Shown here piece by piece: positions 5,100-27,932 of a DNA stretch of 30,755 bases. Position numbers and translations under genes: made by a program. The stretch covers positions 1-30,755 of the IMG/VR virus record IMGVR_UViG_3300021959_000236; one strand, written 5' to 3'. Every line of letters starts with the position of its first letter. The stretch's first letter is position 1. The DNA is from a virus. Below the pieces are notes generated by a model. The model did not search any database. It had not been told where the DNA came from and worked only from the letters and a program-made list of their open reading frames with translations.

Positions 5100-6257
5100 T
5101 CAAAATATCCAATCAACTGGTGCAAAGTTGATGGTGTACGAATAAAGCGGTTCACCACCAAGTTGAACAAATGTAGCGTTAGCAACGCTTCCTTTGATGC
5201 CTGTGTACTTTCTGTTATTTTCAGTGAAAGTTGTACCCGCTGGTTTTGCATTGTTAGCAGTTTTGTCTATTGTTTCTCTCATGCCGCCAGTAGGCATGTA
5301 AAACAACGATTCGTTTGAGTTTACATTGGATGAAAATGGGATTTGAATAGCAATGATATAATCTCCATACTTTAAATTACTGCTTGAAATAGATTCAAAC
5401 TCAAGTTTTCCTTTCAAGATTTTTTCAAGGTTATTGGATATACCATGTATGCTCCCTCCGCCTATTGAAGCACCACCGCCACCATTGTTGCTGTTGTTCA
5501 GCACCGCAAACAATTCAGCCACTTTATCACCAGCACTTTTATTGCTTACGGCTGAAGAACTACGACCTCCCGAATACTGTGTGTGGTAAGGCTTTTGAAC
5601 ACCAAGACCGGGCGGGTATGAAGGGAAAGAAATGGTTTCATTGTTCCCGTTTTGTCCTTTGTTTACATTTGTTAATTCCACCGCAGTGCTTGTTGCACCA
5701 TCAATGGGTGAATTGATTTGATTTGCTGTTAATTCAAATGTACTGGTATAAGTGGTTACAAGCGTAACAAGGCTCGCCGCAATGTCCGATGCGCTCCTTG
5801 CAGAAGAATTATCATGGATAGTAATGTAATAACGCCCACCGTCAAGTCCTTCATTTGATAATGAGTTTTTAACCAGCCATATTTCATAACTGTTGTTGAT
5901 TTTGATAGAATAATCAGCATCAGCAGTTACACCATCCGCCATTCCATTTACGAGGTATGCGGCGTAAAAGTTCCAACGAAATGCTGAATCAGCAGGCAAT
6001 CCTGCTATGCGAGAAAAATCAATTACTGCACTGGCTTCTCGTTGTAATTCCCCAATGTTCAACAAATCATCATCTGTCATTACACCCTCAATAGTGATAA
6101 GAGATTTTGGAAGATTGAGGTCAAAAGCAAAACGGGAACCGCCAGCAAAGGGCACAGAAAGAGGTGAAACGCCCCTGTCCACATTCATGGTGAGGGTGGT
6201 GGCCATCAACTCAATGATGCCGCCATCATTGCGTACAAGACGGATTGGTGTACCCAT
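5100..6257 (-). CDS. Putative distal tail / baseplate protein
   Basis: A 385-residue protein whose ATG overlaps the tape-measure stop (ATGGG over TGA), with GGCGG upstream. The N-terminal 70 residues (TPIRLVRNDGGIIELMATT, then a short beta-rich stretch ending in LITIEGVMTDDD) resemble the opening of phage distal-tail or baseplate hub proteins, but this is a pattern judgement and no family was confirmed. The middle (about 200-275) is a Ser/Asn/Gly-rich low-complexity linker including an NNGGGGASIGGGS patch. The C-terminal 100 residues return to beta-type sequence ending in YSYTINFAPVDWIF. Its position between tape measure and fibre supports a tail-tip role. It could equally be a generic baseplate protein. 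Confidence 0.5.
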   Translation of the reverse strand: MGTPIRLVRNDGGIIELMATTLTMNVDRGVSPLSVPFAGGSRFAFDLNLPKSLITIEGVMTDDDLLNIGELQREASAVIDFSRIAGLPADSAFRWNFYAAYLVNGMADGVTADADYSIKINNSYEIWLVKNSLSNEGLDGGRYYITIHDNSSARSASDIAASLVTLVTTYTSTFELTANQINSPIDGATSTAVELTNVNKGQNGNNETISFPSYPPGLGVQKPYHTQYSGGRSSSAVSNKSAGDKVAELFAVLNNSNNGGGGASIGGGSIHGISNNLEKILKGKLEFESISSSNLKYGDYIIAIQIPFSSNVNSNESLFYMPTGGMRETIDKTANNAKPAGTTFTENNRKYTGIKGSVANATFVQLGGEPLYSYTINFAPVDWIF

Positions 6258-7480
6258 CAGTACCGCCCCCTCATGGTGGTGCCGCCGATGTTGCGGGCCA
6301 TCTCTTGCTGAATCATGTTGCCAATCTCACGAGCAAGGGCACGCTTGTCCGTGCGGTCGGTGATGCCGCTGGCATTGACTGTGATGTTGAAAGTGTTACC
6401 TTGTCCTCCAAAGCCCATCTCACCGGCTTTTTCAAGTGGCACTACTGCTTCTCTACCCGAAGCGTTGTCACCCAAAAGAGCAAGTGTAGGGCCATTTACA
6501 ATACCACCCTTAGCCAGTGCGGGAATACTCCAATTAGACAAATCCAACCCTACATTCCAATCATCACCGAAAGGATTGGGGATGGTTTTGGTGAACTTAA
6601 TATTTGCGAAAAGGTTGTTGATAGACTCAATTAAAGTGTTAATCGGGGCTTTAAGATAACCACCAATGGTTGTTCCAACATCACTAAAAGCGGTGCTCAT
6701 AGTGCTTACAATACCCGAAAAATCCCAATCAAAGATACCACCCTCGCCAAAGTAATAGTCAAAGGTAAGCCAATCGGGAAGTGTAAATGAGAAAATACTT
6801 GCCCAGTTGATGTCCCAATCAAAAATACCGCCTTCACCGAAGTAGTAGTCAAGGGTAAGCCAGTCGGGGAGGGTGAACGAAAACAGGTCACTCCACGAAA
6901 TGTTCCAATCAAAGACTCCGCCTTCACCAAAGTAATAGTCCAGCGTCATCCAATCGGGTAATGTGAAAGAAAAGATTGACCCCCAATCAATATCCCAGTT
7001 AAACACACCACCTTCGCCAAAATAATGGTCGTAGGTCAGTTCATCCGGCAGGTCAAAGTCAAACCACCCATCCCAGTCAAAGTCCCAATCAAAGACACCA
7101 CCCTCACCAAACCAGTGGTCGTAGGTCAATTCGTCGGGCAGTGTGAAGGAAAAGAGGCTATTCCAATTGATGTCCCAATCAAATACCCCACCTTCTCCAA
7201 ACCAGTAATCCCATGTGAGTTCTTCGGGCAGGTCGGGTAGGCTATCCCAAAGTTCACCAATTTTTGTTTTAATTGATTCCCACGCCTCATTAGCCTTTTC
7301 TTTGATGGACTCCCACGATAACTCGTCAATCTTGTCCTTAATCGGTTGAATCACATTGTCGTTGAACCACTTTGCCAAGTCTTTGAGTGCTTCAATCGCC
7401 ATCTGTCCAGCCGCTTTGAAACCGGGGCCAATCTGCGACACCATGCTGGACATGGAGGAAATCATGGAAATTAGCGACAT
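6257..7480 (-). CDS. Tail tape measure protein with six 30-residue repeats
   Basis: 407 residues, start ATG 7480 with GGGAGTGA upstream. The N-terminus (1-80) is helical and amphipathic (MISSMSSMVSQIGPGFKAAG). Residues 84-263 are six tandem 30-residue units with consensus LPDxLTxDYYFGEGGVFDWD followed by an aromatic tail. Residues about 325-407 show a typical tape-measure C-terminus: ALAKGGIVNGPTLALLGD, then GREAVVPLEK, then FNITVNASG and a basic helix. It follows the tail assembly chaperone pair, as in lambda-like tails. Tape measures set tail length and occupy the tube lumen; at roughly 0.15 nm per residue this one would imply a short tail of around 60 nm (inference). No lysozyme or peptidase domain is visible. 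Confidence 0.8.
   Translation of the reverse strand: MSLISMISSMSSMVSQIGPGFKAAGQMAIEALKDLAKWFNDNVIQPIKDKIDELSWESIKEKANEAWESIKTKIGELWDSLPDLPEELTWDYWFGEGGVFDWDINWNSLFSFTLPDELTYDHWFGEGGVFDWDFDWDGWFDFDLPDELTYDHYFGEGGVFNWDIDWGSIFSFTLPDWMTLDYYFGEGGVFDWNISWSDLFSFTLPDWLTLDYYFGEGGIFDWDINWASIFSFTLPDWLTFDYYFGEGGIFDWDFSGIVSTMSTAFSDVGTTIGGYLKAPINTLIESINNLFANIKFTKTIPNPFGDDWNVGLDLSNWSIPALAKGGIVNGPTLALLGDNASGREAVVPLEKAGEMGFGGQGNTFNITVNASGITDRTDKRALAREIGNMIQQEMARNIGGTTMRGRY
6692..7231 (-). repeat. Six tandem 90-bp repeats within the tape measure gene
   Basis: Six contiguous 90-base units encode residues 84-263 of the tape measure. Each starts LP[DE] and carries FGEGG[VI]F[DN]W at a fixed place; the last unit keeps the first half and diverges after DWDFSG. 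Third-position differences between units show the array is old or selected at protein level, not a recent slippage product. There are no spacers. Confidence 0.9.
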
Positions 7481-12881: not shown

Positions 12882-13637
12882 TCACTGCATTTCATCTTCA
12901 CACTGCTCACAAAGAGTGTTATCTTGTGGCCCCATTTCGTTAGAACCATAATACATCATTGGTTCGGTTGGCCTTCCACACTTAGCGCATGGAACTTTTG
13001 GTGGGTTAAAAAAATCTCTTTTCAACACACTCCAAGCATCACGCATAGCAACATCACGAGAGGTCATGATGCGGCGGAGGTGTTCAGCCTCAGCATCGGG
13101 GTCAAAACCACCTTCTTCTTGAGGTTTCAAATGAGGGTACATGCCATAAAAACGCTTTTTGTCAGCATCCAATTCCTCTTGCTCCATTTCATGATACGGC
13201 TTACCTTCAAATCCTTCGGTATGTCCTTGCTCACGAGAAAAATTGATGTCACTTTGACGGGCTTCCCAATCGGCCAGTGCTTCATCGTGCATGTCTTTTT
13301 CACTCATATCCGGGCCGGATTCGGGGCCAAACTGTTCATCAATTGCTCCTTGTTCAGCCTCAACATCGGGTTCGCTCAGCGACTCTTCCAAGGTTTGACC
13401 TTCAAAGGGCATACGCTCACCCATAAACTTGAGGCCATGCTCTTGGGGATTGGCCACAGCATCACGCATGAGAGCATCACGAGCCTGTGTGAATTGTTCT
13501 CCACTGGCCTCTCCGCCAGCAGTGCGAAGAGCGGCTGATGCCTTTTTGTTTGCCCATTGTTGCAAACGCATTTCTTCGCCATCTTCAGTCAGCACCTTTT
13601 GTCGGTGCGGTCGCATTGCTTTAATCAGTACCTTCAT
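12882..13637 (-). CDS. Acidic helical protein with C-terminal zinc ribbon
   Basis: 251 residues, ATG 13637 with AGAGGTTG upstream. The first 210 residues are charged and predicted helical, acidic in the middle, without a recognised domain. Cys217, Cys220, Cys243 and Cys246 form CxxC-x22-CxxC, a likely zinc site. The stretch before it (AWSVLKRDFFNPPKVPCAKC) resembles the 74-residue protein at 28532-28756, which also has an AWxxLK helix, an NP and a CxKCGxP ribbon. Function is unknown; it may be a minor head or neck protein. Confidence 0.6.
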   Translation of the reverse strand: MKVLIKAMRPHRQKVLTEDGEEMRLQQWANKKASAALRTAGGEASGEQFTQARDALMRDAVANPQEHGLKFMGERMPFEGQTLEESLSEPDVEAEQGAIDEQFGPESGPDMSEKDMHDEALADWEARQSDINFSREQGHTEGFEGKPYHEMEQEELDADKKRFYGMYPHLKPQEEGGFDPDAEAEHLRRIMTSRDVAMRDAWSVLKRDFFNPPKVPCAKCGRPTEPMMYYGSNEMGPQDNTLCEQCEDEMQ

Positions 13638-15284: not shown

Positions 15285-16385
15285 TCACTTGAGGTCACGG
15301 ATGGAACCATGACCGCCGAAGAAAGTCGTCCATAGTTCACCCATGGTACGGTACATTCCCTCTTGGCCGAGGCGGTTGATGGCGAATGGGTCGCCAGTTT
15401 CAATACCGCTCTCAAAGTATTGGGTTGGAATTGCAGTGCTGAAATACAGGTAGTCCGTGTCAAGGAAGTACATGCGGCTCAAAGTGTCGGTTTGAACATC
15501 CTTTGAGGGGATGATTGGAACACCGTTGTAGGTAGCCACGATGAAACCAGCCTCAATACCGGGAACACCTTTCACACCGTTGTAAGTAGGCGTAACACGC
15601 TTCTCTTCCATGAATCGCTGTTGCGATTGGAGGAGTTGCTGAAGGCGCATGAGCGTGTCGTACCCCGTAAGGATGACCTTGGGGTTACCACCACGAGTCC
15701 AAGTCTTTTGGAACAAGTCGTCCAATTGGTCAAGGGACAAGTTGCGGTCGGTACCACTGTTTTGGTTGTGCTCAGCCAACGACCACGAGTTTGCACTGCG
15801 GTCAATGGAGTACATGTCCTCATCAGTGGAGGCGGAGGCACCAACAGTAACACGGTCAAGGGACTCAAAGTTGTTACCAGCGGCGGTAGCCTTGTCGGTG
15901 GTCAGCATTTTGTTGATGTGCTCAGCGTGGTGCTTACCCATTTCTTCCTTCAAGATTGCACGGATGTCGCCCAGTCCATCGTCCTTGTCGGACAAGAACA
16001 TGGCTGTTTCGCTCATGTCAAAGGTGTGCACGACAGTCTTTGGCTTGGCGGCGATGTGCTGGAAGGTTGGCTTGGTGGTGTCGGGGAGCGTAGCGTTCTC
16101 AGCCACACCGCCACCAACAGTGAAGGAGGGGCGAGCCGTGATAACACGCCAGCCGCTTCGTTCCCAAGGTCGCTTTGGAAGGATGGAGAAGGCGTTGAAC
16201 TCTTGGTTCAACTGGCTCCAAACTTTGCGTCCATAAATCGCTTGGTAAGTACCAGCGGTCGTGGATAGCATTGGAGCGTCAGCCTTGAGCAACTCGCTAC
16301 CGGAGTAGGAGTAACCCATTGCGTTGCCTGCGCCATAGTAGTAGCGTTCCATGTCAGTAATGTTTCGGATGTAATCTCTTGCCAT
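15285..16385 (-). CDS. Major capsid protein, HK97 fold
   Basis: 366 residues, ATG 16385 with GAGGTGA 7 bases upstream. The order is N-arm (1-55, aromatic and Gly-rich), then VWSQLNQEFNAFSILPKRPW (about 55-74) leading into the E-loop and spine-helix region, a helix with HAEHINKMLTTD, a P/A-domain part with NPKVILTGYDTLMRLQQLLQ, and a beta end (VATYNGVPIIPSKDV, then RMYFLDTDYLYFSTA). Size and pattern fit HK97-type capsid subunits. It lies directly after the prohead protease/scaffold gene, the usual order. The N-arm is not separated by a long delta domain; scaffolding is supplied by the preceding gene. Confidence 0.85.
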   Translation of the reverse strand: MARDYIRNITDMERYYYGAGNAMGYSYSGSELLKADAPMLSTTAGTYQAIYGRKVWSQLNQEFNAFSILPKRPWERSGWRVITARPSFTVGGGVAENATLPDTTKPTFQHIAAKPKTVVHTFDMSETAMFLSDKDDGLGDIRAILKEEMGKHHAEHINKMLTTDKATAAGNNFESLDRVTVGASASTDEDMYSIDRSANSWSLAEHNQNSGTDRNLSLDQLDDLFQKTWTRGGNPKVILTGYDTLMRLQQLLQSQQRFMEEKRVTPTYNGVKGVPGIEAGFIVATYNGVPIIPSKDVQTDTLSRMYFLDTDYLYFSTAIPTQYFESGIETGDPFAINRLGQEGMYRTMGELWTTFFGGHGSIRDLK

Positions 16386-16408: not shown

Positions 16409-17254
16409 TCACTCTCCACGCAAAGTGCGTTGTGCGAGGGCGTGGACTTCATCCCACCCCATGTTTGCCAAGTCTTGCGTTGAGGGAATGTTGACGGAGG
16501 AAGCCGACTTTTTAATGGTCGTACCTGCTCCTGCGCCGATGTTGTCAATGCGCTCGGAAAGTGCCTCAATGGACTTCACGATTTCCGACAAAGGTGCTCG
16601 TGCGTCAAAGGCGGCTTTCTCAGCCTCAGCCTTTGCAACTCGCATCTCGTTGTTGAAACGAGCGGAGAAGTTGCCTTCAAGGTCGTTGCGGAAGTGTTGT
16701 TCCAAAGCGGCGGCTTTGTACACTTCGTAAGCGGCTTCAAGGTCAGCCTCACTCACATTGTCGGAGTTGAGGTAACCCTTAGCCATAGAGACAGGGCCGA
16801 GAGCACCAGCAGGGGTTCTACCGCCGCTGGAAGTGATAGCACTGATTGCACCCGTGGAAGGAGAACCGTTCTCCTGTCCTCGGCCACGGACTTGACCAGC
16901 GAAGTAGTCAGCACCGTCCACGGCATCGGGGTTGTCAAATCCACCAAGTTGAGCCTTTTCAAGAGCATCAAAGTGGTTTCGTGCGGCCAAGGTGTCCACG
17001 CCAGCCGACTTGAGGGTGTTTTCCATCCAACTCAAGTATTCTGCCGAGATAACATCGCTGTATTCGTCGTTGCTCTTTTCCATTTCATCATCCTCTTCTT
17101 TGGATTCTTTTTTGTCTTTCTTTTCATCGCCGCCTTCTTTCTTATCGGACATTGCTTCACGGAGTTGAGGAGGAAGTTCTCCCTTCTCCATAGCGTCCAA
17201 TCGTGCTTCAAGGCGTGACATAATTTCGCTCAAATCGCTGTTTTCTTCAGTCAT
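16409..17254 (-). CDS. Nested scaffold protein from an internal start
   Basis: An in-frame ATG at 17254 (codon 173 of the protease-scaffold gene) is preceded by AAAGGAGGAC with 8 bases between GGAGG and ATG, one of the best ribosome-binding sites in the window. It would yield a 281-residue scaffold beginning MTEENSDLSEIM without the protease domain. This mirrors lambda, where scaffold Nu3 is translated within the protease gene C. It explains how excess scaffold over protease could be made from one gene. Expression is inferred from sequence only. Confidence 0.75.
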   Translation of the reverse strand: MTEENSDLSEIMSRLEARLDAMEKGELPPQLREAMSDKKEGGDEKKDKKESKEEDDEMEKSNDEYSDVISAEYLSWMENTLKSAGVDTLAARNHFDALEKAQLGGFDNPDAVDGADYFAGQVRGRGQENGSPSTGAISAITSSGGRTPAGALGPVSMAKGYLNSDNVSEADLEAAYEVYKAAALEQHFRNDLEGNFSARFNNEMRVAKAEAEKAAFDARAPLSEIVKSIEALSERIDNIGAGAGTTIKKSASSVNIPSTQDLANMGWDEVHALAQRTLRGE

Positions 17255-17770
17255 GTTTGTGTCCTCCTTTAAAATGCGAAATTGTGCTTCGGGGTTAATG
17301 CCCTTTTCACAAATCGTCACCTCATGCAATTCCATTTTTGAAATCTCTTGGTAGTCGCCTTTTTCCATGTCGGACTTTCGCACTCGCTTGAATGCTTGTC
17401 CTCCAATGGAAAATCCACGAAGGTTTCCCTTGCGGATTTCAGCGGCTACTTCACGAGCCTTCTCAATGTCACTGCGGAGTTTTACTACAACGAACATACC
17501 TGTGTCATCCACTTCGGATTTCCACATTCGTCCGTTTGAATCAATGTACGAGTCAATGACTTCACCAACTTGAATGTTGGAATGAGCCAACTGCACATTG
17601 CGGTACTTTTCACCCTTCATGAAACCATCAAAGGCATCTTTTAGGGCGGAGCGAGTAATAAGGTCACCTTGTTTATCAACAAGTTCAACCGATGCGTAAC
17701 CAGCAACAACCAAATCGTTACCACTCTTGAGGAGAGTGATACCGTCAGTAGGTCGTTGAATGCTCAGCAT
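16409..17770 (-). CDS. Prohead maturation protease (S78-type) fused to scaffold
   Basis: 453 residues from ATG 17770. A GTG at 17806 would add 12 residues but would place the TATATATA box inside the coding region. Residues 1-165 match the HK97 prohead protease family: VVAGYASVELVDKQGDLIT (21-39), His63 in AHSN, Ser121 in GFSIGG, and ELHEVTICEKG at about 148-157, supporting the catalytic His and Ser. Residues 173-453 are scaffold-like: a coiled-coil start (LSEIMSRLEARLDAMEKG), a Lys/Glu/Asp-rich stretch, an Ala-rich helical region, and an end containing MGWDEVHALA. The protease matures the procapsid and normally degrades the scaffold. The scaffold also has its own internal start (17254). Confidence 0.85.
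   Translation of the reverse strand: MLSIQRPTDGITLLKSGNDLVVAGYASVELVDKQGDLITRSALKDAFDGFMKGEKYRNVQLAHSNIQVGEVIDSYIDSNGRMWKSEVDDTGMFVVVKLRSDIEKAREVAAEIRKGNLRGFSIGGQAFKRVRKSDMEKGDYQEISKMELHEVTICEKGINPEAQFRILKEDTNMTEENSDLSEIMSRLEARLDAMEKGELPPQLREAMSDKKEGGDEKKDKKESKEEDDEMEKSNDEYSDVISAEYLSWMENTLKSAGVDTLAARNHFDALEKAQLGGFDNPDAVDGADYFAGQVRGRGQENGSPSTGAISAITSSGGRTPAGALGPVSMAKGYLNSDNVSEADLEAAYEVYKAAALEQHFRNDLEGNFSARFNNEMRVAKAEAEKAAFDARAPLSEIVKSIEALSERIDNIGAGAGTTIKKSASSVNIPSTQDLANMGWDEVHALAQRTLRGE
17261..17270 (-). promoter_or_regulatory. Internal Shine-Dalgarno for nested scaffold
   Basis: Minus-strand AAAGGAGGAC lies inside the protease-scaffold coding region at the junction of the two domains, 8 bases from an in-frame ATG. 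Chance occurrence exactly at a domain boundary in the correct frame is unlikely. Confidence 0.8.
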
Positions 17771-17794
17771 TAAACATCCGACTTTCTGTTGTAG

Positions 17795-17802
17795 TATATA
17801 TA
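17795..17802 (-). promoter_or_regulatory. TATA-box promoter candidate before the protease/capsid genes
   Basis: TATATATA sits in the 39-base gap between the giant gene's TAG (17810-17812) and ATG 17770. Its centre is about 28 bases before the ATG, the spacing expected for an archaeal TATA box driving a leaderless transcript; only a weak GGATG precedes this ATG, unlike most genes here. A bacterial reading (TATATA as -10 with a TTGCTA about 19 bases upstream) is possible but less well spaced. It would let protease, scaffold and capsid genes be expressed separately from the upstream head genes. Confidence 0.55.
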
Positions 17803-17809
17803 CCACACG

Positions 17810-20800
17810 CTATTGCCGAGATAGCAAAGGTTGGTCATTATCGTATTCTATAGAGAGATTTTCACCTTCATCTGTTTGGACTTGAATGTGATTCAGTCGC
17901 TCTTTTTTCTTTTCTTTTCTTTCATCGGTGTTTTTCTTTTCACCATCAAAATCTGGAAGAGTGGCCTCATCACGCAATTGAGTTGGGCCACGAGGTGATT
18001 CTTGCGGCGTACCGACATCAATACCCAACCCCTTTGGCCCTGTCCAAGTCATCTTTTCTTTGGCGATTTTGTCCAAAGCCCGTGTAATCAGTTCCAAAGC
18101 CTTCTTCGTTTGGTTGGGCTTAAGCAAGCGGTTTTCATCATCATCATCAATGATGCCCGCACTGCCTTCTTCCATTTCTTCTTCCGTTGGCTTCTTTGGC
18201 ATATCTACTTCTACCTTCTTTGCCACATACCCTTTTACCATTAACGGAGCCACTGCCGACCAAAAAGGCATGAGACTTTCAGCCAGCACTACAGGATAAT
18301 CGGTTTTGGTAATACCGCTCATTGCACTCTTAGGAGAGTGAACATACCAAACATCGCCAATTTCTTCCATCTTGTACATTACTGTATCAACTTCGTTTAA
18401 CAGGATTTCAATATGACTCTCGTGGATTTGAATATCGTGAGGTACAAGAATTGGTGCAAATGATTTTGTCATAAGGTCAAGTGATTCGGTACTGGCGGCA
18501 CCCTCACCCTCTCCTTCACCTTCTAATTCTTTGACCTGTACATTATACACAGGGCGGTTGCTACGGTTCTTTTTGGAAATACCCGTGATGGATGCACGAA
18601 CAATGTCACCAACTTTGAACACTTTGCTTTGATTGTGGGCTGTGCCTACATCCATGTAATGTTCCCCTTTGTATTCCACTGCTCGGTTTCCAAGCCCTTC
18701 AATTTCAAGGATAGGGCCAGCACCCAATTGATAAGTGAACGGCCCAGTGCCTCTTCGGTCAAGAACGATGAAATTGAAGTCTCGGCTGTCACGGTACACA
18801 ATCCATTTTGGATGCCTACGCTCTCCACGCATGTAAGTGGACTTGTTATCACGCAACAAGATGTTATCATGGTCATTTTTGAGGTTCTTCACAGCGTCAA
18901 CCAGTCCTTCATCATCGGTCATGCGAGTATCATGTGGGCCGGGAACAATAACATGCTCTTGACTATCAAATTGCGAGCGAAGGATTTTCAAGCGTTCAAA
19001 CAGTTGCATTTCTCCCACATTGGTATCATCGTAGTTGATAATGTCAATAATGTTTAATTCATCTTCACCAAGAATACCGTCAAGTGTGTAATTCTTGTCA
19101 CTCATTTTGTCAAGAGCCTCTTTGGTAGCCTTGCGTAATCCTTTCTTTCTCCCATTTTCATCATACGCTGTGATTTCATCACCACTGCGAACAATGATGA
19201 TACGCTGTCCATCATACCATTTGCTTACAACCCATGACCCGCTGAAACCACGAAGGTGTTCAAGGTCGGCCAAATCAAAAATGCGGTGCATGGGGCGAAC
19301 TGCTGGACTCCACTTTGCATCGTCACTCTTGGACAATAACACATCGGGGTCAAGCAGGGAGGTAATCAGTTCGGTCATTTCGCTGGTTGCTATTGTAGTC
19401 ATGTTTTCACTGGCCACTTCTCCTGTTTCCATATTCATGCTTTGATGGGGGTTATTGGGGTACAACGGTGGAGGAGCATTAGCGTACACAAAGTCCGACA
19501 CATCTTTTCCATGAACCACTTGTGTGAGTTCTTCGGGTACACTATGATACAGACCCGGCCCTACATGGCTACCAACATGGATGTTGCCTTCACTGTCAAA
19601 CTCAGCACCAAGAGTGGGAGTCAATTCATACCCATGATGCCATGCACCGCTGTCAAAGTTATCGGTAATCGCCGTATTAACAGGACTCGCCGCTCCTACA
19701 GGTCGTTGACCAAAGCCTGCGGTTTCGGAAATATCTTCACCTGCTGTAAAAATACCCTCTTCATCATCCAATGCACGAGGGTCAAAATGCACGATGGTGT
19801 CAAGATTGTTTTTTGTGGTGCTTGTACTGCGGGCCTTTGTAGCACTTCCAGTTCCTTTTGAGTCGTGAATATCACCGCTAATGCTCCCAATACCAGCCGA
19901 AAGCATAGACATTTCAAACTGTGCAGGGTTAAGCATCATATTCATGTAACGAGGAATAGCGTGAGAATGATGTCCTTTCCATTCACTTTGCCCGCTTGCT
20001 TCTTGTTGAAAATGATTCAATGCTTGATGATAACCCTTTTCTCGTGCATGACGGAAGAAGCGTTCTTCATCGTTTAGTTCTTCTTCGGGCTTGTTCATCA
20101 ATTCTTCATCGCTAAACTGCTTGAGATTGATGCCGTCAATGTTAGGGATTTTACCACTGAGCAGTATATCTTTCACCGTGGATGCAAACAACGGCGTATT
20201 CATTTTTGAAGATAAGTTGATGAGTTCTGTTGCCTTTTCTTTTGCTACAGGAGTCTTTTCAACACCAAGAATCTTTAGCACTTCATCAACAGACATGTTG
20301 CTGTCAATCATTTTACCATCAGTAGATAGATGTTTGCCAAGTGTTTTGTGGAATGGATTTTGCACACCTTGTGAGGTGGCTTTTACCGATTTATCACTAC
20401 CATAATTAAGAGTAGTTAAACCGTGTACTGAATGAGGAACAGACGCAATGTATCGTTGAGCGTCACGCATCAATTGATGGTGGTTTGCAATGAAAGTAGC
20501 AGGGTCGTTGGGGTCAAACGCATTTGGGTCATGCTCAAGATATTTTGGAAGAATAATGTCCCGTGCTACTTGTGCAACAGTTTGGCGATGTCCTTTGTGA
20601 AGTTGCTCAAGTCGCCTTTGGTCTATTTCCCAATGTGTTGTTGGTTTTTTGATAGCCGCTTGCGCCTGTAATTGTTCTAATCGTTGAGTTGCTTGTCGTA
20701 ATTGTTCTCTCATTGGAAGAAGTTCTTCAAACGGAGTACCAGCAACTTGCTCTTCCATTAACCGTTCATTGAGCATTTCCACTTCTTCAAGCAGTTCATC

Positions 20801-23527
20801 TTCTTTTTGAGATGCAGGCAACATACCACCAAATTGCAAAAAGCGTGCTACAGCGTCAGCCTCACCAGCCGCTATTGTGGTTTTTGTCTTTTGATTTTTC
20901 TTGGCTGTTTGAATCTCTTGATTCATGTTTTGAATCACAGTGTCAATCCCATCGTTTAATTTTGTTTTATCAAACTCTCCAAGTTGCCTGTCTAACAAAA
21001 TCTTGTTTAACTCATCGTGATTTTCTTCGTTGTGCAGGTAGTCCAAAATAGCCTTTGGATTTTGTGTTCCAAGAATCTTTGATGCGTTGGTAATTGCCAT
21101 CATTGCATGATTCATTGAAGGGTTATCAAGAACACGGTTTTTCATTGAATCAAAAGAAAAACCGCTTTGTCCACCCCAACGCATGAAATCTTTGAACTCT
21201 TCACGAGTCGTTCCACCACTGGCCGACTCATCGCCACGCATCCAATCCTCAGCACTGGAAAATGATTTTTTTGCTGGTGTATTGGGGTGAAACATGCGCC
21301 CACCAAGCGTTTCCATGTTATGTGCAAGAATGGCATTAACATGACTACGAGAATCGGATGGTGATGCTCCGTAGGCCGTGTAGCCCCCAACATGCTGTGT
21401 AGGTACCACTGTGTGTGGAAACGCCATGCTTCGCAAAAACTTACCTACAAACTTATTTTTTAACTCGTTTTCCGAAAGATGTCTTATGTTGTATTCGTAT
21501 TGTGGATTGAGAGATGATTTGTGTTCAGTGTAGTTGTTTTTATTGGTGGCCCCTTCTGTGTTTGGGTGTTTCTTTGATGTACCAAACGGTGACAACAGGT
21601 TTTGCAAGTGTTCTGCACTTGAGTTGTAATTAAACTTGACATACTTTCCATCTTGTGTTGCTTCCCCTATGCTTTGCAATCGTAGAGGCATGAAATGATG
21701 AGCAAGCGTTCTGTTTAGTTCACTTGGTTGAATGTAATTGTCTCGGCTTTCTGTTAATTCATTAAACGGCGATACACCTTCTTCGTTAGCGTGTGTAGCG
21801 TTCAAGATTTCGTGGTATGTAGCAAGATTAGTTCCAGCACCACCTGTACTTTGAAATGGCGAAGCCCAAAAATGACCCGGCCCATATGTAAATCCATTTT
21901 CATGTTCTTGCCAGTATTTGGGTTTTTCTTCATCGGGATGTGGGCCGTGTGGTGAGGTGAAAAAAGCACGATGATTACGAATGTCTTTGATTTGACGATG
22001 CAATGAAGATTGTGTTTTTGCAACCGCTTCTATGTAATCAATCATACCAGCATCTACAATTGGTTCCTCTAACTTACCGTACAATGGATGGTCAGTAAGC
22101 AACTCTCGTGTTTTAGGGTCATAGCCAGCCAAATATAACAAGTCATCTTTGGACATTCTTACCTTTTCCAGTCCTCGCTCTTTACCCTTGAAATGAATAC
22201 GGGAAGCATCAAACAATTCATCATACGACATTTCTTTCATTGGTTCTTTGTGAATGTTAAGGCGAGGCAAATACTTCATTCGCTTATCAGCCCCGTAATT
22301 GTCCCGTATGGCTTCTTGAATGTGGCTGGCAATTGACTTATTATCAAACTCATCTAAAGGCTCGTGAGAAAGACGACCCAACGCTTGTTGAAGGAACATA
22401 CCTTCTTCACCTTTGGTGTAATCGTTATCGTTGTTTTCTTGATGGTAATGAGCGTTACGACCCATCATGGTCATAGGGCGAATAGCCCAGTTCATTTCGG
22501 GTGTCATTCGCATAAGAGCGTTGTACTTAAGGCGAGCAGAAGGAAACTTTTCACCGTTAGGCAGGGTAATCAAATCATGCTTGTCAAGCCCTTTTTCGTC
22601 AATGTGATTGACAATAGCACTGCGTTCTTCGGGACTGAACCACTCAAGGCCAAGCATGTAGCCGAGATGTCCAAGTCGGGTTGGGTGTTCCTCGTATTTG
22701 TCATCCAGCACCATGTTGTTATCTTCATCAGCCTCCCACATAGCGGCTCGGTCAGCAAAGTGTTCTTTGCGAAGTTGCTCTTTCATTTCAGCATTGGTCA
22801 TACCTTCAGCCAACAACTCCTCTTGCCGTTTATTGTTTTGCTTTAACCATCGGAAATAATCTCGCTCGTACAGGTCATGTTGATGATGAAGAAGTGTACC
22901 GTTTGGTCGGGTATCACCAATGATATTGACCTTTTTTCCTTCTCCTTGTTGAAACCCACCAACCAACGGATGTTTCTTACCAAGCGTATCAAAGAATTGT
23001 TTTTCCATTTCCTTTTCTTTTTCACTGTGGCCACCTAATGCCCAATTGCGTAGCATCTCCACATAAGCAGGTGTGCCCGTCACGGCGTTGGTACGAAGAA
23101 GAGGGTGGTTCACTTCATGGAAGGGAAAATGGTGGCGTTGGTATGGATGAGCACCGTCTTTGGGTTGATAATACGGCCACACCGCATGTCGGTTTTTAGG
23201 ATTAGTAGGGGATTGAAGGCCGTCTTTCCATACATGGTTGGTCGGCTCGCCGTGCGTGTGTTGCAAAGCAAACATGTAACCGATACCTTCGGGAAAATGG
23301 TAGTCCTTTTCCACATCAACACTGCTTTCTTCTTCTGCTTTAAGCACCATTTCAGCCGTTGCTTTCAACGACTTGAACAGCGGCTCAGTGGGAAGCGTGT
23401 GAAGGTTTTCAAACGCAAGAATGTATTCAGCCGCCGCAGTGCGAAGGTCAAGACCATCGTTCAATGATTTTAGCAACTCGTTGCTACACACATAGAAGTG
23501 GTCATCCATGTCCTCACCGCCAATCAT
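17810..23527 (-). CDS. Giant head-region protein with degenerate DNA-ligase-like domain
   Basis: 1905 residues; ATG 23527 overlaps the previous stop (ATGA), and an ATG at codon 7 has GGTGAGG just upstream. Residues 1 to about 1400 are largely unrecognised, His-, Asn- and Met-rich, with a coiled coil near 880-960. Residues about 1425-1580 resemble an ATP-dependent DNA ligase adenylation domain: motif I-like KWYDGQR (Lys1436, Asp1439, Gly1440, Arg1442), motif III-like YTLDGIL (1480-1486), motif IIIa-like LNIIDIINYD with LFERLKIL, motif IV/V-like NILLRDNKSTYMRGERR and KWIVYR. An OB-fold-like stretch follows (about 1580-1668), then an EGEGEGEG linker and an acidic/basic tail. Canonical motif I is KxDGxR; here Lys is one residue further away, and the motif IV and V lysines are replaced, so ligation activity is doubtful. 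Position between portal and protease suggests an internal virion protein. Confidence 0.7.
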   Translation of the reverse strand: MIGGEDMDDHFYVCSNELLKSLNDGLDLRTAAAEYILAFENLHTLPTEPLFKSLKATAEMVLKAEEESSVDVEKDYHFPEGIGYMFALQHTHGEPTNHVWKDGLQSPTNPKNRHAVWPYYQPKDGAHPYQRHHFPFHEVNHPLLRTNAVTGTPAYVEMLRNWALGGHSEKEKEMEKQFFDTLGKKHPLVGGFQQGEGKKVNIIGDTRPNGTLLHHQHDLYERDYFRWLKQNNKRQEELLAEGMTNAEMKEQLRKEHFADRAAMWEADEDNNMVLDDKYEEHPTRLGHLGYMLGLEWFSPEERSAIVNHIDEKGLDKHDLITLPNGEKFPSARLKYNALMRMTPEMNWAIRPMTMMGRNAHYHQENNDNDYTKGEEGMFLQQALGRLSHEPLDEFDNKSIASHIQEAIRDNYGADKRMKYLPRLNIHKEPMKEMSYDELFDASRIHFKGKERGLEKVRMSKDDLLYLAGYDPKTRELLTDHPLYGKLEEPIVDAGMIDYIEAVAKTQSSLHRQIKDIRNHRAFFTSPHGPHPDEEKPKYWQEHENGFTYGPGHFWASPFQSTGGAGTNLATYHEILNATHANEEGVSPFNELTESRDNYIQPSELNRTLAHHFMPLRLQSIGEATQDGKYVKFNYNSSAEHLQNLLSPFGTSKKHPNTEGATNKNNYTEHKSSLNPQYEYNIRHLSENELKNKFVGKFLRSMAFPHTVVPTQHVGGYTAYGASPSDSRSHVNAILAHNMETLGGRMFHPNTPAKKSFSSAEDWMRGDESASGGTTREEFKDFMRWGGQSGFSFDSMKNRVLDNPSMNHAMMAITNASKILGTQNPKAILDYLHNEENHDELNKILLDRQLGEFDKTKLNDGIDTVIQNMNQEIQTAKKNQKTKTTIAAGEADAVARFLQFGGMLPASQKEDELLEEVEMLNERLMEEQVAGTPFEELLPMREQLRQATQRLEQLQAQAAIKKPTTHWEIDQRRLEQLHKGHRQTVAQVARDIILPKYLEHDPNAFDPNDPATFIANHHQLMRDAQRYIASVPHSVHGLTTLNYGSDKSVKATSQGVQNPFHKTLGKHLSTDGKMIDSNMSVDEVLKILGVEKTPVAKEKATELINLSSKMNTPLFASTVKDILLSGKIPNIDGINLKQFSDEELMNKPEEELNDEERFFRHAREKGYHQALNHFQQEASGQSEWKGHHSHAIPRYMNMMLNPAQFEMSMLSAGIGSISGDIHDSKGTGSATKARSTSTTKNNLDTIVHFDPRALDDEEGIFTAGEDISETAGFGQRPVGAASPVNTAITDNFDSGAWHHGYELTPTLGAEFDSEGNIHVGSHVGPGLYHSVPEELTQVVHGKDVSDFVYANAPPPLYPNNPHQSMNMETGEVASENMTTIATSEMTELITSLLDPDVLLSKSDDAKWSPAVRPMHRIFDLADLEHLRGFSGSWVVSKWYDGQRIIIVRSGDEITAYDENGRKKGLRKATKEALDKMSDKNYTLDGILGEDELNIIDIINYDDTNVGEMQLFERLKILRSQFDSQEHVIVPGPHDTRMTDDEGLVDAVKNLKNDHDNILLRDNKSTYMRGERRHPKWIVYRDSRDFNFIVLDRRGTGPFTYQLGAGPILEIEGLGNRAVEYKGEHYMDVGTAHNQSKVFKVGDIVRASITGISKKNRSNRPVYNVQVKELEGEGEGEGAASTESLDLMTKSFAPILVPHDIQIHESHIEILLNEVDTVMYKMEEIGDVWYVHSPKSAMSGITKTDYPVVLAESLMPFWSAVAPLMVKGYVAKKVEVDMPKKPTEEEMEEGSAGIIDDDDENRLLKPNQTKKALELITRALDKIAKEKMTWTGPKGLGIDVGTPQESPRGPTQLRDEATLPDFDGEKKNTDERKEKKKERLNHIQVQTDEGENLSIEYDNDQPLLSRQ

Positions 23528-24093
23528 AGCGGCTTAAACTGTGGGCAAGCGTGCAAATCCATACCACCCTCGTGGAGCAAGCACCCTGTTCGCTGAGTGC
23601 CGCCGCAAAGCCCACACATCACTGGTGCGCCACTTTCTCGCATAGCCGCTCTTGGATTCATTTTCTTAACGGGCGACTCACCTTCTTCACGCTCAACGCC
23701 GCTACCCTCGTGAGGGTTCATGCGAGAGCCAAGTTGCTCCATGTTGGTTGCTTCCTTTGGCTTCTTTTTCTTTGGCGCATCCTCAGTCTCAATGGTGCGC
23801 CCGTTGGTGGTGAAGTAACCACTCTTGGTTTGTCCACCCGACTCGGCGTGGAAAGAAGGATTGATGTCCGTGATTTTTTCGGGCTTGAATCCCGGTTCGG
23901 CTTTTTCCATTTTGCCGCCGCAACCCATCTTCATGCAACCCATCTTGTTCATTTTAGAACCGCACTTTGGACAGTCTTTGCACTCACAAGGCTCTTTGCC
24001 GCAATCACACTTGGCCTTTTCAATTCGCTCAAGGCGTTGTTCAAGTTCAATGGCTTTTGCTAAATATCCATTTTCAACTGGGCGGGGTTTCAT
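23524..24093 (-). CDS. Cys-rich zinc-binding protein
   Basis: 189 residues, ATG 24093 with AAAGGAGGC upstream. After an N-terminal helix (LAKAIELEQRLERIEKAKC) comes a dense cluster of cysteines at about 29-58 (CDCGKEPCECKDCPKCGSKM, then more), able to hold two or more zinc ions. A disordered, Lys/Glu/Pro-rich middle follows. A second cluster lies at the C-terminus (VMCGLCGGTQRTGCLLHEGG, then HACPQF). No family was recognised. Tight coupling to the giant gene (ATGA) suggests a partner in the virion or in head assembly. Confidence 0.6.
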   Translation of the reverse strand: MKPRPVENGYLAKAIELEQRLERIEKAKCDCGKEPCECKDCPKCGSKMNKMGCMKMGCGGKMEKAEPGFKPEKITDINPSFHAESGGQTKSGYFTTNGRTIETEDAPKKKKPKEATNMEQLGSRMNPHEGSGVEREEGESPVKKMNPRAAMRESGAPVMCGLCGGTQRTGCLLHEGGMDLHACPQFKPL

Positions 24094-24431
24094 TGTACTG
24101 CCTCCTTTGCACTGTTAGCCATTTCGTGAATATCTTCCCACGACATGGCGTGAATATCTTCGTTGCTCATGGTGCCAAAACCGGGCTGGCTCTTGAGCAA
24201 TGCACTACTGTTAAGTTCCATGTCACCACGGAATGGGTCAATTTGCAAATCGGTAGTAAAGGGGGTGCTTACACTCACAAGCCCCATTTTGCGAAGAAGG
24301 CGTTGTGGGTTGTTAATGAGATTTTTGAGAGCCTCGTTTTCCGCCTTAAGGAGCATAAGATTAGAGTCCATGGACTCCATTTTGTTGATGAGAACACCAA
24401 TCAATTGCTCGGCATTTGAGGATTCAGTCAT
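24090..24431 (-). CDS. Small coiled-coil protein sharing scaffold termini
   Basis: 113 residues, ATG 24431 with GAGGTGAG 5 bases upstream. The N-terminus (MTESSNAEQLIGVLINKMES then a leucine/glutamate helix) is a short coiled coil and resembles the nested scaffold start MTEENSDLSEIM. The C-terminus has a tandem MSNEDIHAM / MSWEDIHEMA (88-105), the second of which matches MGWDEVHALA at the end of the scaffold. It may be a minor scaffold or a capsid/portal-binding assembly factor; this is inferred from the shared peptides only. Confidence 0.55.
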   Translation of the reverse strand: MTESSNAEQLIGVLINKMESMDSNLMLLKAENEALKNLINNPQRLLRKMGLVSVSTPFTTDLQIDPFRGDMELNSSALLKSQPGFGTMSNEDIHAMSWEDIHEMANSAKEAVQ

Positions 24432-24440
24432 TAACTCACC

Positions 24441-24872
24441 TCAAACCTTACGACCGTAGGAACCTGCGCTTCGCTTGTATTGTGGGTTGTGGCGAGAAGA
24501 GGACATAAAACCAAGGCGAGAACCCTCAATGTTGGTCTTTTCAGCAGGTGCTTCCATTTTCAACACAGGAACGCCGCCAGCGAAAATGTCTCGTGGGCCT
24601 TGAGGAGTAACTACATCGGATTTAACAATTTCTTGGTGCAAATCATCAGCCAAAAAGTCACTCAACTTTTGTACTTCCGAAAGATATTGCTTAGCCATAT
24701 GGCCATCACCATTTTCAAGAGCATTAAGAAAAGCCTTGTTTGCTTGTTCCATTTTTCGGGCCATCGGGTGCATTTTCAACAAGTCCATGTTAATCCCTGC
24801 TATGTCTGTCTCATATCGTTCAACTTTAAGAGCGTTACTGCCCACGGGGGCGACGAGCGTTAAGTAGTGCAT
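24441..24872 (-). CDS. Hypothetical protein after portal
   Basis: 143 residues from ATG 24872, overlapping the end of the portal gene by 38 bases. N-terminal short beta segment (MHYLTLVAPVGSNALKVERY), a helical middle with KMEQANKAFLNALENGDGHM and a following helix, and a basic Ser/Arg/Tyr-rich end (HNPQYKRSAGSYGRKV). No motif was recognised. Context suggests a minor head protein. Confidence 0.5.
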   Translation of the reverse strand: MHYLTLVAPVGSNALKVERYETDIAGINMDLLKMHPMARKMEQANKAFLNALENGDGHMAKQYLSEVQKLSDFLADDLHQEIVKSDVVTPQGPRDIFAGGVPVLKMEAPAEKTNIEGSRLGFMSSSRHNPQYKRSAGSYGRKV

Positions 24873-26619
24873 TGCTCAAGTTTTGTTGCATAGAAAGCGG
24901 TGGCCCTCGTTGTTGAACATTGCTAAATGGTGCGCCACTTCCCATACTATTTCGCCGTTCCGGTGCCGCAGGCCCACGGTTTCGCAAACCAATCCCTTGA
25001 CCACCGGGTTGTGGGGGAGGCATAATTTGCTGTGCCAACTGCGGTGGCATTTGTGGCCCTGCTCCCATCATTGGTGGCATACCGCCACCGGGTGGCATAC
25101 CGGGTGGCATACCGGGTGGCATACCGCCACCGGGTGGCATACCGGGTGGCATACCGGGAGGTGCTCCGCCGGGAGGTGCGCCTTGCTGTGGTTGAGGAGG
25201 TGGGGGACGCTTGTAAGTGAAACGGATGTCTCGGTTAGCCGTGTCCTCAATGAGTTCGGGCATAAAGCCCAATTGAGCCATGCGTTGCGCCACATTGAGT
25301 TCTTGTTCATCACGGCGTAGGCGTGTAATTTCATCTTCTTCTTCGTTTGGATAAAGCGTAAGTTTCCAATCATTAACATTCAATTGTTTAAGCATTCGTG
25401 GAAACAAGACTTCAGTGTACACTTTTTGTCCAAACTCTACGGCTCGGTTTGTTACCAGTATTTGCATACCTTCATTGTTGAGTCCACCCGATTTACCGCT
25501 ATCTACCATGAACACTGAAGATACGCCATAAAAAGCGGCCATACGATTTCGTATTTCGTCACGCACCGCAATATACTGCATCTCTTCCAGCGTGTCCATG
25601 AACTTAACCCAATTTACACCACCTCGTCCTGTAGCCGACTCAATACCGACCTTTGGTACATAATGAGGGTCACGCTCCATTTTTTCATCCACAGCCTTCC
25701 AAAAAGACTTCATGGATTCCAAATTATCTGTAGTAACTGATACAATGCCTTTTGGCATTCTTCGTTTTTGATATGCTGTGTAAATGTAATTGTCCATGGC
25801 TGTAAGCGTCATGGCTTGTCGCCACATTGTATTAACAGGCGAGCGACCATACAACTTAGAAGGCATATACTTGCTTAAATGTAATACTTCACCTTCTGCA
25901 AAGTATTGTGTTTTACCACTGCCTGCCATGTTCACATAATGAACATCTTGCAATTCAGCACCACATTGTTCACAAGTTTCATCTTCAGCATGTGTTTTAA
26001 CTTCATCACGATGAATTAAACAAATGCGATAACGGCCACCACGCACACCACGCTTGTCAGCAACAATACGCATAAAAATGGGGTCACCACGCATAATTTC
26101 TTTGACTCGGTAAAATGCTACTTCTTTGCTTTGTGGGTCAATAAAATACTCTTTTACGAGAATTAAAAAAGCGTCATCTACAATGTTGAGGTCACTTTCA
26201 ATTTCATTCATTACATGGAGAAACGATTGTTCCATGCTGTTTTCTTGCTTGAGAAGCCACTTGGGATAAGTCAATTCATCAATATCCGGTTTACGAACTG
26301 AGCCGCCGCACTCAGCACAAGATTCTACTTCACTTTGGTATTCTTCGTCACATACTGTACATTTGCGTGCAAACTTCTTTTCCCAATAATAACCACGGCG
26401 AAACATTTCTTGACGCAATTTTGCAAGCACAGTACGCAAAATCAACGATTCATTGCTTACAGCATAAAGAGCAGGAATGGTGATACCTTGAGCCATAACT
26501 GGCTCTTGAATACCGCTTGTCCAAAGCGGCATAGTAGGAGTAGGTGATTCTTTACGCCGAAATGGACTACCAAGAGCAGAAAGAAAACGAGAGATTCTGC
26601 TGTCATCATCTGCCATCAT
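24835..26619 (-). CDS. Portal protein with zinc-ribbon insertions
   Basis: 594 residues; tandem ATGs at 26619 and 26616 follow GGAGGG, and the second is slightly better spaced. Portal-like features: IPALYAVSNESLILRTVLAKL near 48-68, EVLHLSKYMPSKLYGRSPVN (about 244-263), then MTLTAMDNYIYTAYQKRRMPKG and the GVSSVFMVDSGKSGGLNNEG segment, which matches HK97/SPP1-type portals. Unusual are Cys87, Cys90, Cys101, Cys104 (CxxC-x10-CxxC) and Cys200, His203, Cys216, Cys219, two likely zinc sites inserted in the N-terminal half. The C-terminus (about 468-594) is a Pro/Gly/Met-rich tail with GMPP repeats. The portal forms the dodecameric DNA gate at one capsid vertex. Confidence 0.8.
   Translation of the reverse strand: MMADDDSRISRFLSALGSPFRRKESPTPTMPLWTSGIQEPVMAQGITIPALYAVSNESLILRTVLAKLRQEMFRRGYYWEKKFARKCTVCDEEYQSEVESCAECGGSVRKPDIDELTYPKWLLKQENSMEQSFLHVMNEIESDLNIVDDAFLILVKEYFIDPQSKEVAFYRVKEIMRGDPIFMRIVADKRGVRGGRYRICLIHRDEVKTHAEDETCEQCGAELQDVHYVNMAGSGKTQYFAEGEVLHLSKYMPSKLYGRSPVNTMWRQAMTLTAMDNYIYTAYQKRRMPKGIVSVTTDNLESMKSFWKAVDEKMERDPHYVPKVGIESATGRGGVNWVKFMDTLEEMQYIAVRDEIRNRMAAFYGVSSVFMVDSGKSGGLNNEGMQILVTNRAVEFGQKVYTEVLFPRMLKQLNVNDWKLTLYPNEEEDEITRLRRDEQELNVAQRMAQLGFMPELIEDTANRDIRFTYKRPPPPQPQQGAPPGGAPPGMPPGMPPGGGMPPGMPPGMPPGGGMPPMMGAGPQMPPQLAQQIMPPPQPGGQGIGLRNRGPAAPERRNSMGSGAPFSNVQQRGPPLSMQQNLSNALLNARRPRGQ
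25073..25158 (-). repeat. GMPP-coding repeats in portal C-terminal tail
   Basis: Imperfect 12-base repeats (plus-strand unit GGTGGCATACCG) interspersed with GCCACC, coding for GMPPGMPPGGGMPP-type sequence. They encode a flexible low-complexity tail. Confidence 0.8.
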
Positions 26620-27932
26620 AATCCCTCCGCATATACGCCTATCGTGTCAGCATTGATGCCCCACTTATCAAGAAGAGAAGCGGCTTTGTTTTTATGCTCT
26701 TTCCAATTGTTGTATGTTACCAATTGGTACAATTCTGTTTTTCGCATAGAATCTTTTTCCTCAATGTAATTCAAAACAGCCTTTGCCTGCAACGATTTAA
26801 GTTTAAGATGTGGAAGCACTCCTTTGAGAATATCACGAATGTCGTCCTTTGAAGAAAAAATAAGCCGATGAACAGGTTTGATGGTGTTTTTGGCCAACTT
26901 TTGGTCGGAGACTAAACGCCCACATCCAATCATTTTTTGCAATTCCTCGCAATGTATTTTCCCATTTTCACCGCTGGCTACAATGGTTACACGAGGGTCA
27001 CCACGCTCGGAAATGAAAATGCTTCCATCAGCATCAACAAAACCAGCCGTGTATGCCCAAATATCCTTAACAATGAAACCGTTTGTACCCTTTTTCACAT
27101 ATGTGTGCCGTTCACTTCCTTTGTACACATCTACTTCTTCACCATACATTTTGAGAAGTGAACTCATTTTTCCAGCCGTCATAGATTTGTTAAGGATATT
27201 ATAACCCCTACGCACAATTTCTTGACTTCCTAAAGCACCTTCTACTTCAAGTAATTTTGATGCATATTCAAGTGCGGCTATGTCCGTTTTTTTCAAATTA
27301 TCAATTTGATGTAAGGTATTTTTCCACATTGTTTGAGCATCCTTTTTCATTTCGTTAGCATCAACCCAATTTTGTTGGTCTATAGTGTCCCAATCTAACT
27401 TGTCGTTAAGGTGTTGCAATACAGTAATTGCCTTAAGGTATTGTTGGCAGGCTTTTTGCAAACTGGTACTTCTTGATTCACCAAACTTACGCAATGCTTT
27501 GAGAGAGCGGTCATCAAGACCAATGTTGCGTATAACATCTTCCATACCGTTTGCCCATGTAAGAGATTTGATTGTCAAATCAATTTCCATGGCTTTTACA
27601 CGGCGTATGTCTTTGATGATACCGTCATACTCTTCCCGAAACGCTTTGTCATGTCGGCGCATTTTGCGACACATACGAATAATAGTGTTAGCATCAGTAC
27701 CGTATTTGGTTTCAAACCATCCATCACCATTTACTGAAAATGATGATATATTGTCTTTTACTGATGAATCGTTTTTAACAAAAACAAGTGGCACTTGGTT
27801 AGGTTGAAAATAGGGATGTTGAGCCAAACTTTTCAATACATCGTGGGAAAAGTCGTCTGCAACCTGCAACGGCACATCGTACTCGTCACCGATAAACAGA
27901 CTCCCCCACATAATGACCACTGGATTGACCAC
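26616..27932 (-). CDS. Helical protein fused to a LAGLIDADG endonuclease domain
   Basis: 438 residues from GTG 27932 (AAGGA 8 bases upstream); ATG 27911 is an alternative. Residues 1-285 are mainly helical and charged with no recognised domain (for example GWFETKYGTDANTIIRMCRK near 71-90). Residues about 290-428 look like a LAGLIDADG homing endonuclease: TAGFVDADGSI at 295-305 with Asp300/Asp302 as acidic residues, then RVTIVASGENGKIHCEELQK, a Gly-Cys-Gly turn, and SLQAKAVLNYIEEKDSM. Only one LAGLIDADG motif is seen, so a dimer would be needed for cleavage. No intein splice blocks or C-extein follow. The N-terminal part may be a structural gene invaded by the endonuclease. Confidence 0.7.
   Translation of the reverse strand: MVNPVVIMWGSLFIGDEYDVPLQVADDFSHDVLKSLAQHPYFQPNQVPLVFVKNDSSVKDNISSFSVNGDGWFETKYGTDANTIIRMCRKMRRHDKAFREEYDGIIKDIRRVKAMEIDLTIKSLTWANGMEDVIRNIGLDDRSLKALRKFGESRSTSLQKACQQYLKAITVLQHLNDKLDWDTIDQQNWVDANEMKKDAQTMWKNTLHQIDNLKKTDIAALEYASKLLEVEGALGSQEIVRRGYNILNKSMTAGKMSSLLKMYGEEVDVYKGSERHTYVKKGTNGFIVKDIWAYTAGFVDADGSIFISERGDPRVTIVASGENGKIHCEELQKMIGCGRLVSDQKLAKNTIKPVHRLIFSSKDDIRDILKGVLPHLKLKSLQAKAVLNYIEEKDSMRKTELYQLVTYNNWKEHKNKAASLLDKWGINADTIGVYAEGL

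Follow-up and report, generated by a model that had tools for sequence, protein, structure and literature searches.

A degenerate ligase-superfamily module within a giant head-region protein of a magrovirus-like virus

The locus described here raises the question of why a module resembling a DNA ligase should be carried by a very large protein encoded among viral head genes, and what purpose such a module could serve if the residues required for ligase chemistry are no longer present. The window, i.e. the whole stretch of DNA that was analysed, comprises 30,755 nucleotides (IMG/VR virus record IMGVR_UViG_3300021959_000236, positions 1 to 30,755). Its minus-strand head genes specify a terminase, a LAGLIDADG-bearing protein, the portal protein (24835-26619; Pfam Phage_portal, E 3e-10), three small proteins of 189, 113 and 143 amino acids, which are rich in K[SA] motifs and occupy the interval between portal and giant (23524-24872), the giant itself, an S78 prohead (maturation) protease (16409-17806; Pfam Peptidase_S78, E 4e-10) and an HK97-fold major capsid protein (MCP; 15285-16385; Pfam SU10_MCP, E 1e-12). 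The giant is therefore located between portal and prohead protease, as an earlier note on this DNA had stated, and the (portal)-giant-protease-MCP order is unbroken in 247 loci with these genes in view, many of which overlap on the same contigs.

The open reading frame of the giant (17810-23527, minus strand) amounts to 1905 codons when counted from an upstream ATG at 23527. Translation probably begins at Met7 (23509), since a GGTGAGG sequence is positioned just 5' of that ATG and the earlier Met is missing in most relatives; from this likely start the head-region protein is 1899 residues long (17810-23509, minus strand). Residues 7-1200 (19928-23509, minus strand) are mostly helical, were modelled by AlphaFold2 with fair confidence (pLDDT 79.7, pTM 0.64) and have no known relative: a Foldseek comparison of the N-terminal 1200 residues with the PDB returned nothing at E<=0.001, Pfam nothing credible and PHROG no match. 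Neither a search of the phage collection with the whole giant nor a scan of the genome collection retrieved a relative.

The ligase-like module, as delimited by Pfam, profile comparison, AlphaFold2 and Foldseek, encompasses residues 1401-1688 (18464-19327, minus strand). It consists of a nucleotidyltransferase (adenylation) domain at residues 1401-1590 (18758-19327, minus strand), recognised through Pfam DNA_ligase_A_M, phmmer matches to 4eq5 and 3rr5 and AlphaFold/Foldseek, followed by an OB-fold domain at residues 1591-1688 (18464-18757, minus strand), which corresponds to AlphaFold strands 191-287 of the model and to a profile alignment with the ligase of Xanthomonas phage SB3. The interval 18500-19270 given in the earlier note falls inside the module (approximately residues 1420-1676) and was correct as to location, while the full module extends beyond it at both ends.

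When analysed alone, the module matches Pfam DNA_ligase_A_M (PF01068) with 27.4 bits (E 3e-6; cut-off 26.2), and this family was matched in 43/43 aligned relatives. A profile of the module retrieves the Thermococcus ligase 4eq5 (E 6e-7) and human ligase 3 (E 1e-3), and NCBIfam ligase models match all ten of the most divergent members tested, with scores well under the curated cut-offs. The AlphaFold2 model of the module, generated from 43 relatives, has a mean pLDDT of 79.7, with most module blocks at 80-92, and its use as a Foldseek query against the PDB returned DNA ligases or ligase complexes as the top 48 matches (best E 7e-13), the next being an RNA-capping enzyme; the best match in BFVD is A0A516LT18, a protein of 827 aa (24% identity, E 4e-25). 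The likeness of the module to ligases is thus far above chance, and sequence-profile and fold similarity place it by descent in the covalent nucleotidyltransferase superfamily. Both the nucleotidyltransferase and the OB fold, which had been proposed near the C-terminus of the giant, are accordingly present in the prediction.

The module shares with ATP-dependent DNA ligases (PF01068 plus OB fold, as in Thermococcus 4eq5 and Xanthomonas phage SB3) not only the two folds but also a PM dipeptide before motif I, the GxR of motif I, motif IIIa and an S-x-Y..G..W block preceding motif V. Unlike these enzymes, it does not possess the motif I Lys, the motif III Glu or the motif V Lys, no N-terminal DNA-binding domain is seen, it is part of a head-cluster protein of approximately 1900 residues, and its OB domain is absent in one lineage (contigs L121, L122, L123 and L126). 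In the giants of this lineage, K[SA] sites immediately flank the remaining nucleotidyltransferase domain on both sides.

Motif I (19202-19222, minus strand) reads S-K-W-Y-D-G-Q-R, so that, as previously noticed, K1436-W1437-Y-D-G-Q-R1442 stands in place of KxDGxR, with Lys1436 one residue ahead of the canonical nucleophile site and Trp1437 occupying that site. This register is free of gaps against Thermococcus ligases. The same is true against the ligase of Xanthomonas phage SB3 (LASYVVQPKYDG), an ordinary phage enzyme employed as register control; among phages it was the sole tblastn match, and a weak one. Among 137 distinct relatives the nucleophile column contains W (87), Y (15), F (14), L (7), Q (5), M (4), I (4) and one gap, and Lys in none of them. 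The Glu position of motif III, which was located by strand order in the model without an unambiguous sequence alignment, is I, V or M in 43/43 sequences of the alignment designated A3. The first Lys of motif V is replaced by L, V, I or M in 43/43, and the second mostly by Arg (KWIVYR in the window). The motif IV acid is D or E in 30/43 sequences (otherwise G, K, N, S or a gap) and is D in the ordinary phage ligase too. The reported replacement of the motif IV and motif V lysines is consequently borne out for motif V, whereas the Arg found at the motif IV Lys position of the window's module is not diagnostic, because the control phage ligase shares it. Three catalytic-motif residues, the Gly and Arg of motif I and the Asp of motif III, are invariant in A3. 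Scans of viral contigs with two module profiles retrieved only degenerate versions and no intact ancestor. On the strength of these motifs, the module is classified as a predicted pseudoenzyme, a ligase fold without its catalysis.

It had been suggested that the module either employs a shifted nucleophile or nicks DNA without ligating it. An active ligase or nucleotidyltransferase, which would use the displaced Lys1436 or another residue to act on the incoming genome, is consistent with the presence of this Lys in 83/137 relatives (34/43 in A3) and with the invariance in A3 of the three catalytic-motif residues listed above. A displaced nucleophile must be conserved, and Lys1436 is not: elsewhere its column contains ten other residue types (A, I, V, S, L, D, T, R, H or C), yet the module is still constrained in these relatives. 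The motif III Glu and the motif V Lys are moreover missing from all A3 sequences, and one lineage dispenses with the OB domain. Lys1436 as nucleophile was therefore rejected, and an active enzyme of any such kind is considered very improbable indeed. The nicking proposal is likewise not supported, since no nuclease signature was found and no nicking chemistry is known for a ligase fold deprived of its lysine.

Loss of catalysis has not been accompanied by relaxed selection. Pairwise dN/dS values, several of which involve saturated synonymous distances, are 0.02-0.07 for the module versus 0.11-0.17 for residues 1-1384, and the least saturated pair gives 0.018 versus 0.119. Conservation of the giant peaks in the module, which is its most constrained part, and the invariant elements of the 43-sequence alignment include PMHRIF, the motif I GxR, TDxxGL and LxDxxSTYMxGExRHPKW. 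That a dead enzyme fold is selected so strongly implies that the module binds or builds something, and the persistence of ligase-like elements (the PM before motif I, GxR and the motif IV/V block) points to continued use of a ligase-type surface. The module clearly exemplifies a ligase fold maintained under strong selection after its chemistry was lost; a literature search for a dead ligase in a virion retrieved nothing relevant.

The identity of the virus bears on how this module has been interpreted elsewhere. The MCP of the window matches archaeal tailed viruses only, the best matches being haloviruses HVTV-1 and HCTV-5 at 35-37%, while a 95-kb relative encodes PolB, PCNA, an ERCC4-type nuclease and a thermosome (open reading frames read by eye). 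An HVTV-1-like MCP combined with these genes is the pattern published for magroviruses, and the window virus is accordingly described as magrovirus-like, an assignment made through its MCP and the replication genes of its relatives, searches of the phage collection having returned no magrovirus genome. Magroviruses, which infect marine group II archaea (PMC10160649), rank with the most common viruses in surface ocean waters; their MCP clade has been described (PMC8651126). Almost all of them are reported to encode a DNA ligase (PMC10160649), which is counted among their replication proteins (PMC10768690, PMC12999244) and whose gene in group A adjoins a phage prohead protease gene (PMC7318539).

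The "ATP-dependent DNA ligase" of this literature (group A contig_156409; PMC7318539, PMC10160649, PMC12999244) therefore has the same neighbour as the giant. It has been assigned a role in replication and repair, whereas the motifs of the module rule out ligase chemistry and its gene is part of the head cluster. In 37 magrovirus-like records, which may be incomplete and 19 of which are at least 80 kb in length, the sole PF01068 match is the module, located in frames of 1789-1982 residues, with one record, the 100-kb G027, giving no match at all, although the family profile finds its module (L236). No second PF01068 match was present in any of the 37 records, and neither the NAD-ligase family (PF01653) nor the RNA-ligase family (PF09414) was matched in eight large records. 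Because no ATP-, NAD- or RNA-ligase was detected elsewhere in the large relatives searched, the published magrovirus ligase, matched by its neighbour gene, is probably the module.

The same absence of a second ligase, together with published inventories that count a DNA ligase as part of magrovirus replication (PMC10160649, PMC10768690, PMC12999244), would agree with the module being the working replication ligase of these viruses, functioning with unusual motifs. This is nevertheless judged highly unlikely, considering that the canonical site offers no residue able to accept the adenylate and that the domain is embedded in a head-cluster gene; a host ligase could serve the viruses, and the records may be incomplete. 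A dead ligase-superfamily member in an unexpected place is a real and widespread feature of these genomes, and such a domain probably stands behind a published annotation. If so, the near-self-sufficient magrovirus replisome loses its ligase and the virus head gains a new kind of component.

Indications as to where the giant acts were obtained from predicted prohead-protease sites. Relative to shuffled sequences, the motif [LIMVF]xK[SA] is enriched 6.5-fold in the C-terminal tail of the S78 protease, a scaffold-like region rich in such sites, 5.5-fold in the three small head genes and 1.8-fold in tail-side genes, and its enrichment in non-redundant homologues of the small head genes is 3.9-7.2-fold. 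Controls in which Arg or Glu replaces Lys, Lys is followed by Asp or Glu, P3 is polar, or the motif runs in reverse show no enrichment in the protease tail or the small head genes, and K before T, G or N is enriched 2.6-fold in the protease tail. In the MCP, a predicted cut at L-L-K34↓A35 (the arrow denoting the scissile bond) has its K[SA] retained in 16/17 non-redundant MCPs and aligns with K102↓A103 of the HVTV-1 MCP (L033:17779-19152), in which all four occurrences of the motif lie within the first 102 residues, with 0.6 expected for the whole protein; the mature N-terminus of the HVTV-1 MCP is thereby predicted to be Ala103. In phage HK97, an S78-type protease cuts the MCP between Lys103 and Ser104. 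The motif [LIMVF]xK↓[SA], new here, is probably the site of the prohead protease. For archaeal prohead proteases, among them the enzyme of HVTV-1, a cultured virus, it would supply a rule under which the cut falls between K and S/A and the P3 residue is hydrophobic.

Since the giant as a whole is enriched just 1.4-fold in this motif, the case for its processing rests on site conservation. Three sites were found to be conserved among 36 divergent relatives, namely K20 (22/36), K1400 (22/36) and K1688 (35/36), the last two of which bracket the module and are both situated in low-confidence linkers of the AlphaFold2 model. The predicted site before the module, L-S-K1400↓S1401-D (19322-19336, minus strand), has K in 29/36 relatives and K followed by S or A in 22/36, and the predicted site after it, M-T-K1688↓S1689-F (18458-18472, minus strand), has K in 36/36 and K followed by S or A in 35/36. 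The giant is therefore encoded in a head cluster together with an S78 protease and carries a predicted cleavage-like motif at conserved positions. From the occurrence of this motif at the module ends and in the MCP, and from gene position in all checked loci, we infer that the giant is built into the procapsid.

Four observations carry the interpretation: the fold, the loss of catalytic residues, the strong constraint and the fixed position by protease and MCP. The reading considered likely is that the pseudo-ligase is kept for a binding or architectural role within a capsid-cluster giant, is cut out by the protease and acts by non-covalent binding. According to this reading, a nucleotidyltransferase and an OB domain that share descent with those of ATP-dependent DNA ligases would have lost catalysis while strong selection held their fold; the giant would enter the procapsid, where the S78 prohead protease would cleave it after the Lys of [LIMVF]xK↓[SA], a cut that is strongly predicted C-terminal to the OB domain and less securely ahead of the nucleotidyltransferase domain. 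Cleavage would free a pseudo-ligase of approximately 288 residues within the maturing head, and this would most likely bind non-covalently, whether to the end of a nucleic acid, to a nucleotide or to a partner in the head. The net charge of the module is -7, i.e. mildly acidic, and speaks somewhat against strong general binding of DNA; binding to DNA ends, as proposed in the earlier note, is a possible function.

A parallel in principle for reuse of this kind is the cap-binding protein snurportin-1, whose m3G-cap-binding domain is a dead nucleotidyltransferase fold employed for binding; this example shows that the fold can be reused. Weak profile matches to snurportin-1 were obtained with 16/43 members (E 0.03-0.06 with a divergent profile, 0.01-0.2 overall), and there is no sign of common descent beyond the superfamily; snurportin-1 differs from the module in being a eukaryotic nuclear import factor, in not being a head protein and in having no OB partner.

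A purely structural role, in which the dead fold would serve as a protein-protein scaffold or core (of the procapsid core or a portal-vertex plug) with no nucleic-acid ligand, would equally accommodate the position between portal and protease, the predicted protease sites, the mild negative charge and the dispensability of the OB domain in one lineage. The ligase-like elements are strongly retained, which suggests a ligase-type surface in use, and a role confined to structure is consequently viewed as possible though doubtful.

Non-covalent binding could also be exerted after delivery. It is conceivable but unlikely that the protease-excised pseudo-ligase caps or marks DNA ends (or binds a nucleotide) and enters the archaeal host with the genome. 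As an ejected effector, the freed module would enter with the DNA and mask its ends or hamper host enzymes of repair or defence, a role kept open by the same gene slot in HVTV-1, where a MuF protein is encoded alongside a giant that combines zeta-toxin-type kinase and ADP-ribosyltransferase domains. HVTV-1 gp113-gp115, the P1 proteins DarA and DarB and the SPN3US ejection proteins resemble the giant in being large and made with the head; in P1, the Dar proteins are packaged into the head and protect DNA, DarA being N-terminally processed by protease (PMC12810830), and P1 DarA and SPN3US head proteins are prohead protease substrates (PMC12810830, PMC10052503). The domains of gp113-gp115 differ from those of the giant, and sequence comparison gave no support for its homology to gp113 or gp115. 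Because of this lack of homology, and because conservation of the module exceeds arms-race expectation, the effector role is regarded as rather improbable, and retention of the pseudo-ligase as a binding or architectural domain is preferred.

Several further features of the head cluster and its surroundings were recorded. A protein of 438 aa encoded ahead of the portal gene (26616-27932, minus strand) matches a PHROG endonuclease (E 3e-8), and its C-terminal third includes the LAGLIDADG-like sequence TAGFVDADGS; it may represent the fusion of a homing endonuclease with a head-cluster protein. The portal protein (24835-26619, minus strand) has an N-terminal zinc-ribbon-like CxxC pair (Pfam E 2e-3) and an MPPG-rich repeat at its C-terminus. 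The head-cluster proteins encoded at 23524-24093 and 12882-13637 (both minus strand) are cysteine-rich with CxxC pairs, which suggests that there are several zinc-binding head proteins. The protein encoded at 6257-7480 (minus strand) consists in part of about six tandem repeats of approximately 30 residues, of the type LPDWLTxDYYFGEGGIFDWDINWxSIFSFT. Finally, the tail side of the 95-kb relative carries an open reading frame of 4684 residues (L030; G002:C1:45935-59989, minus strand), of whose counterpart the open reading frame at the left edge of the window (3-5090) may be a part.
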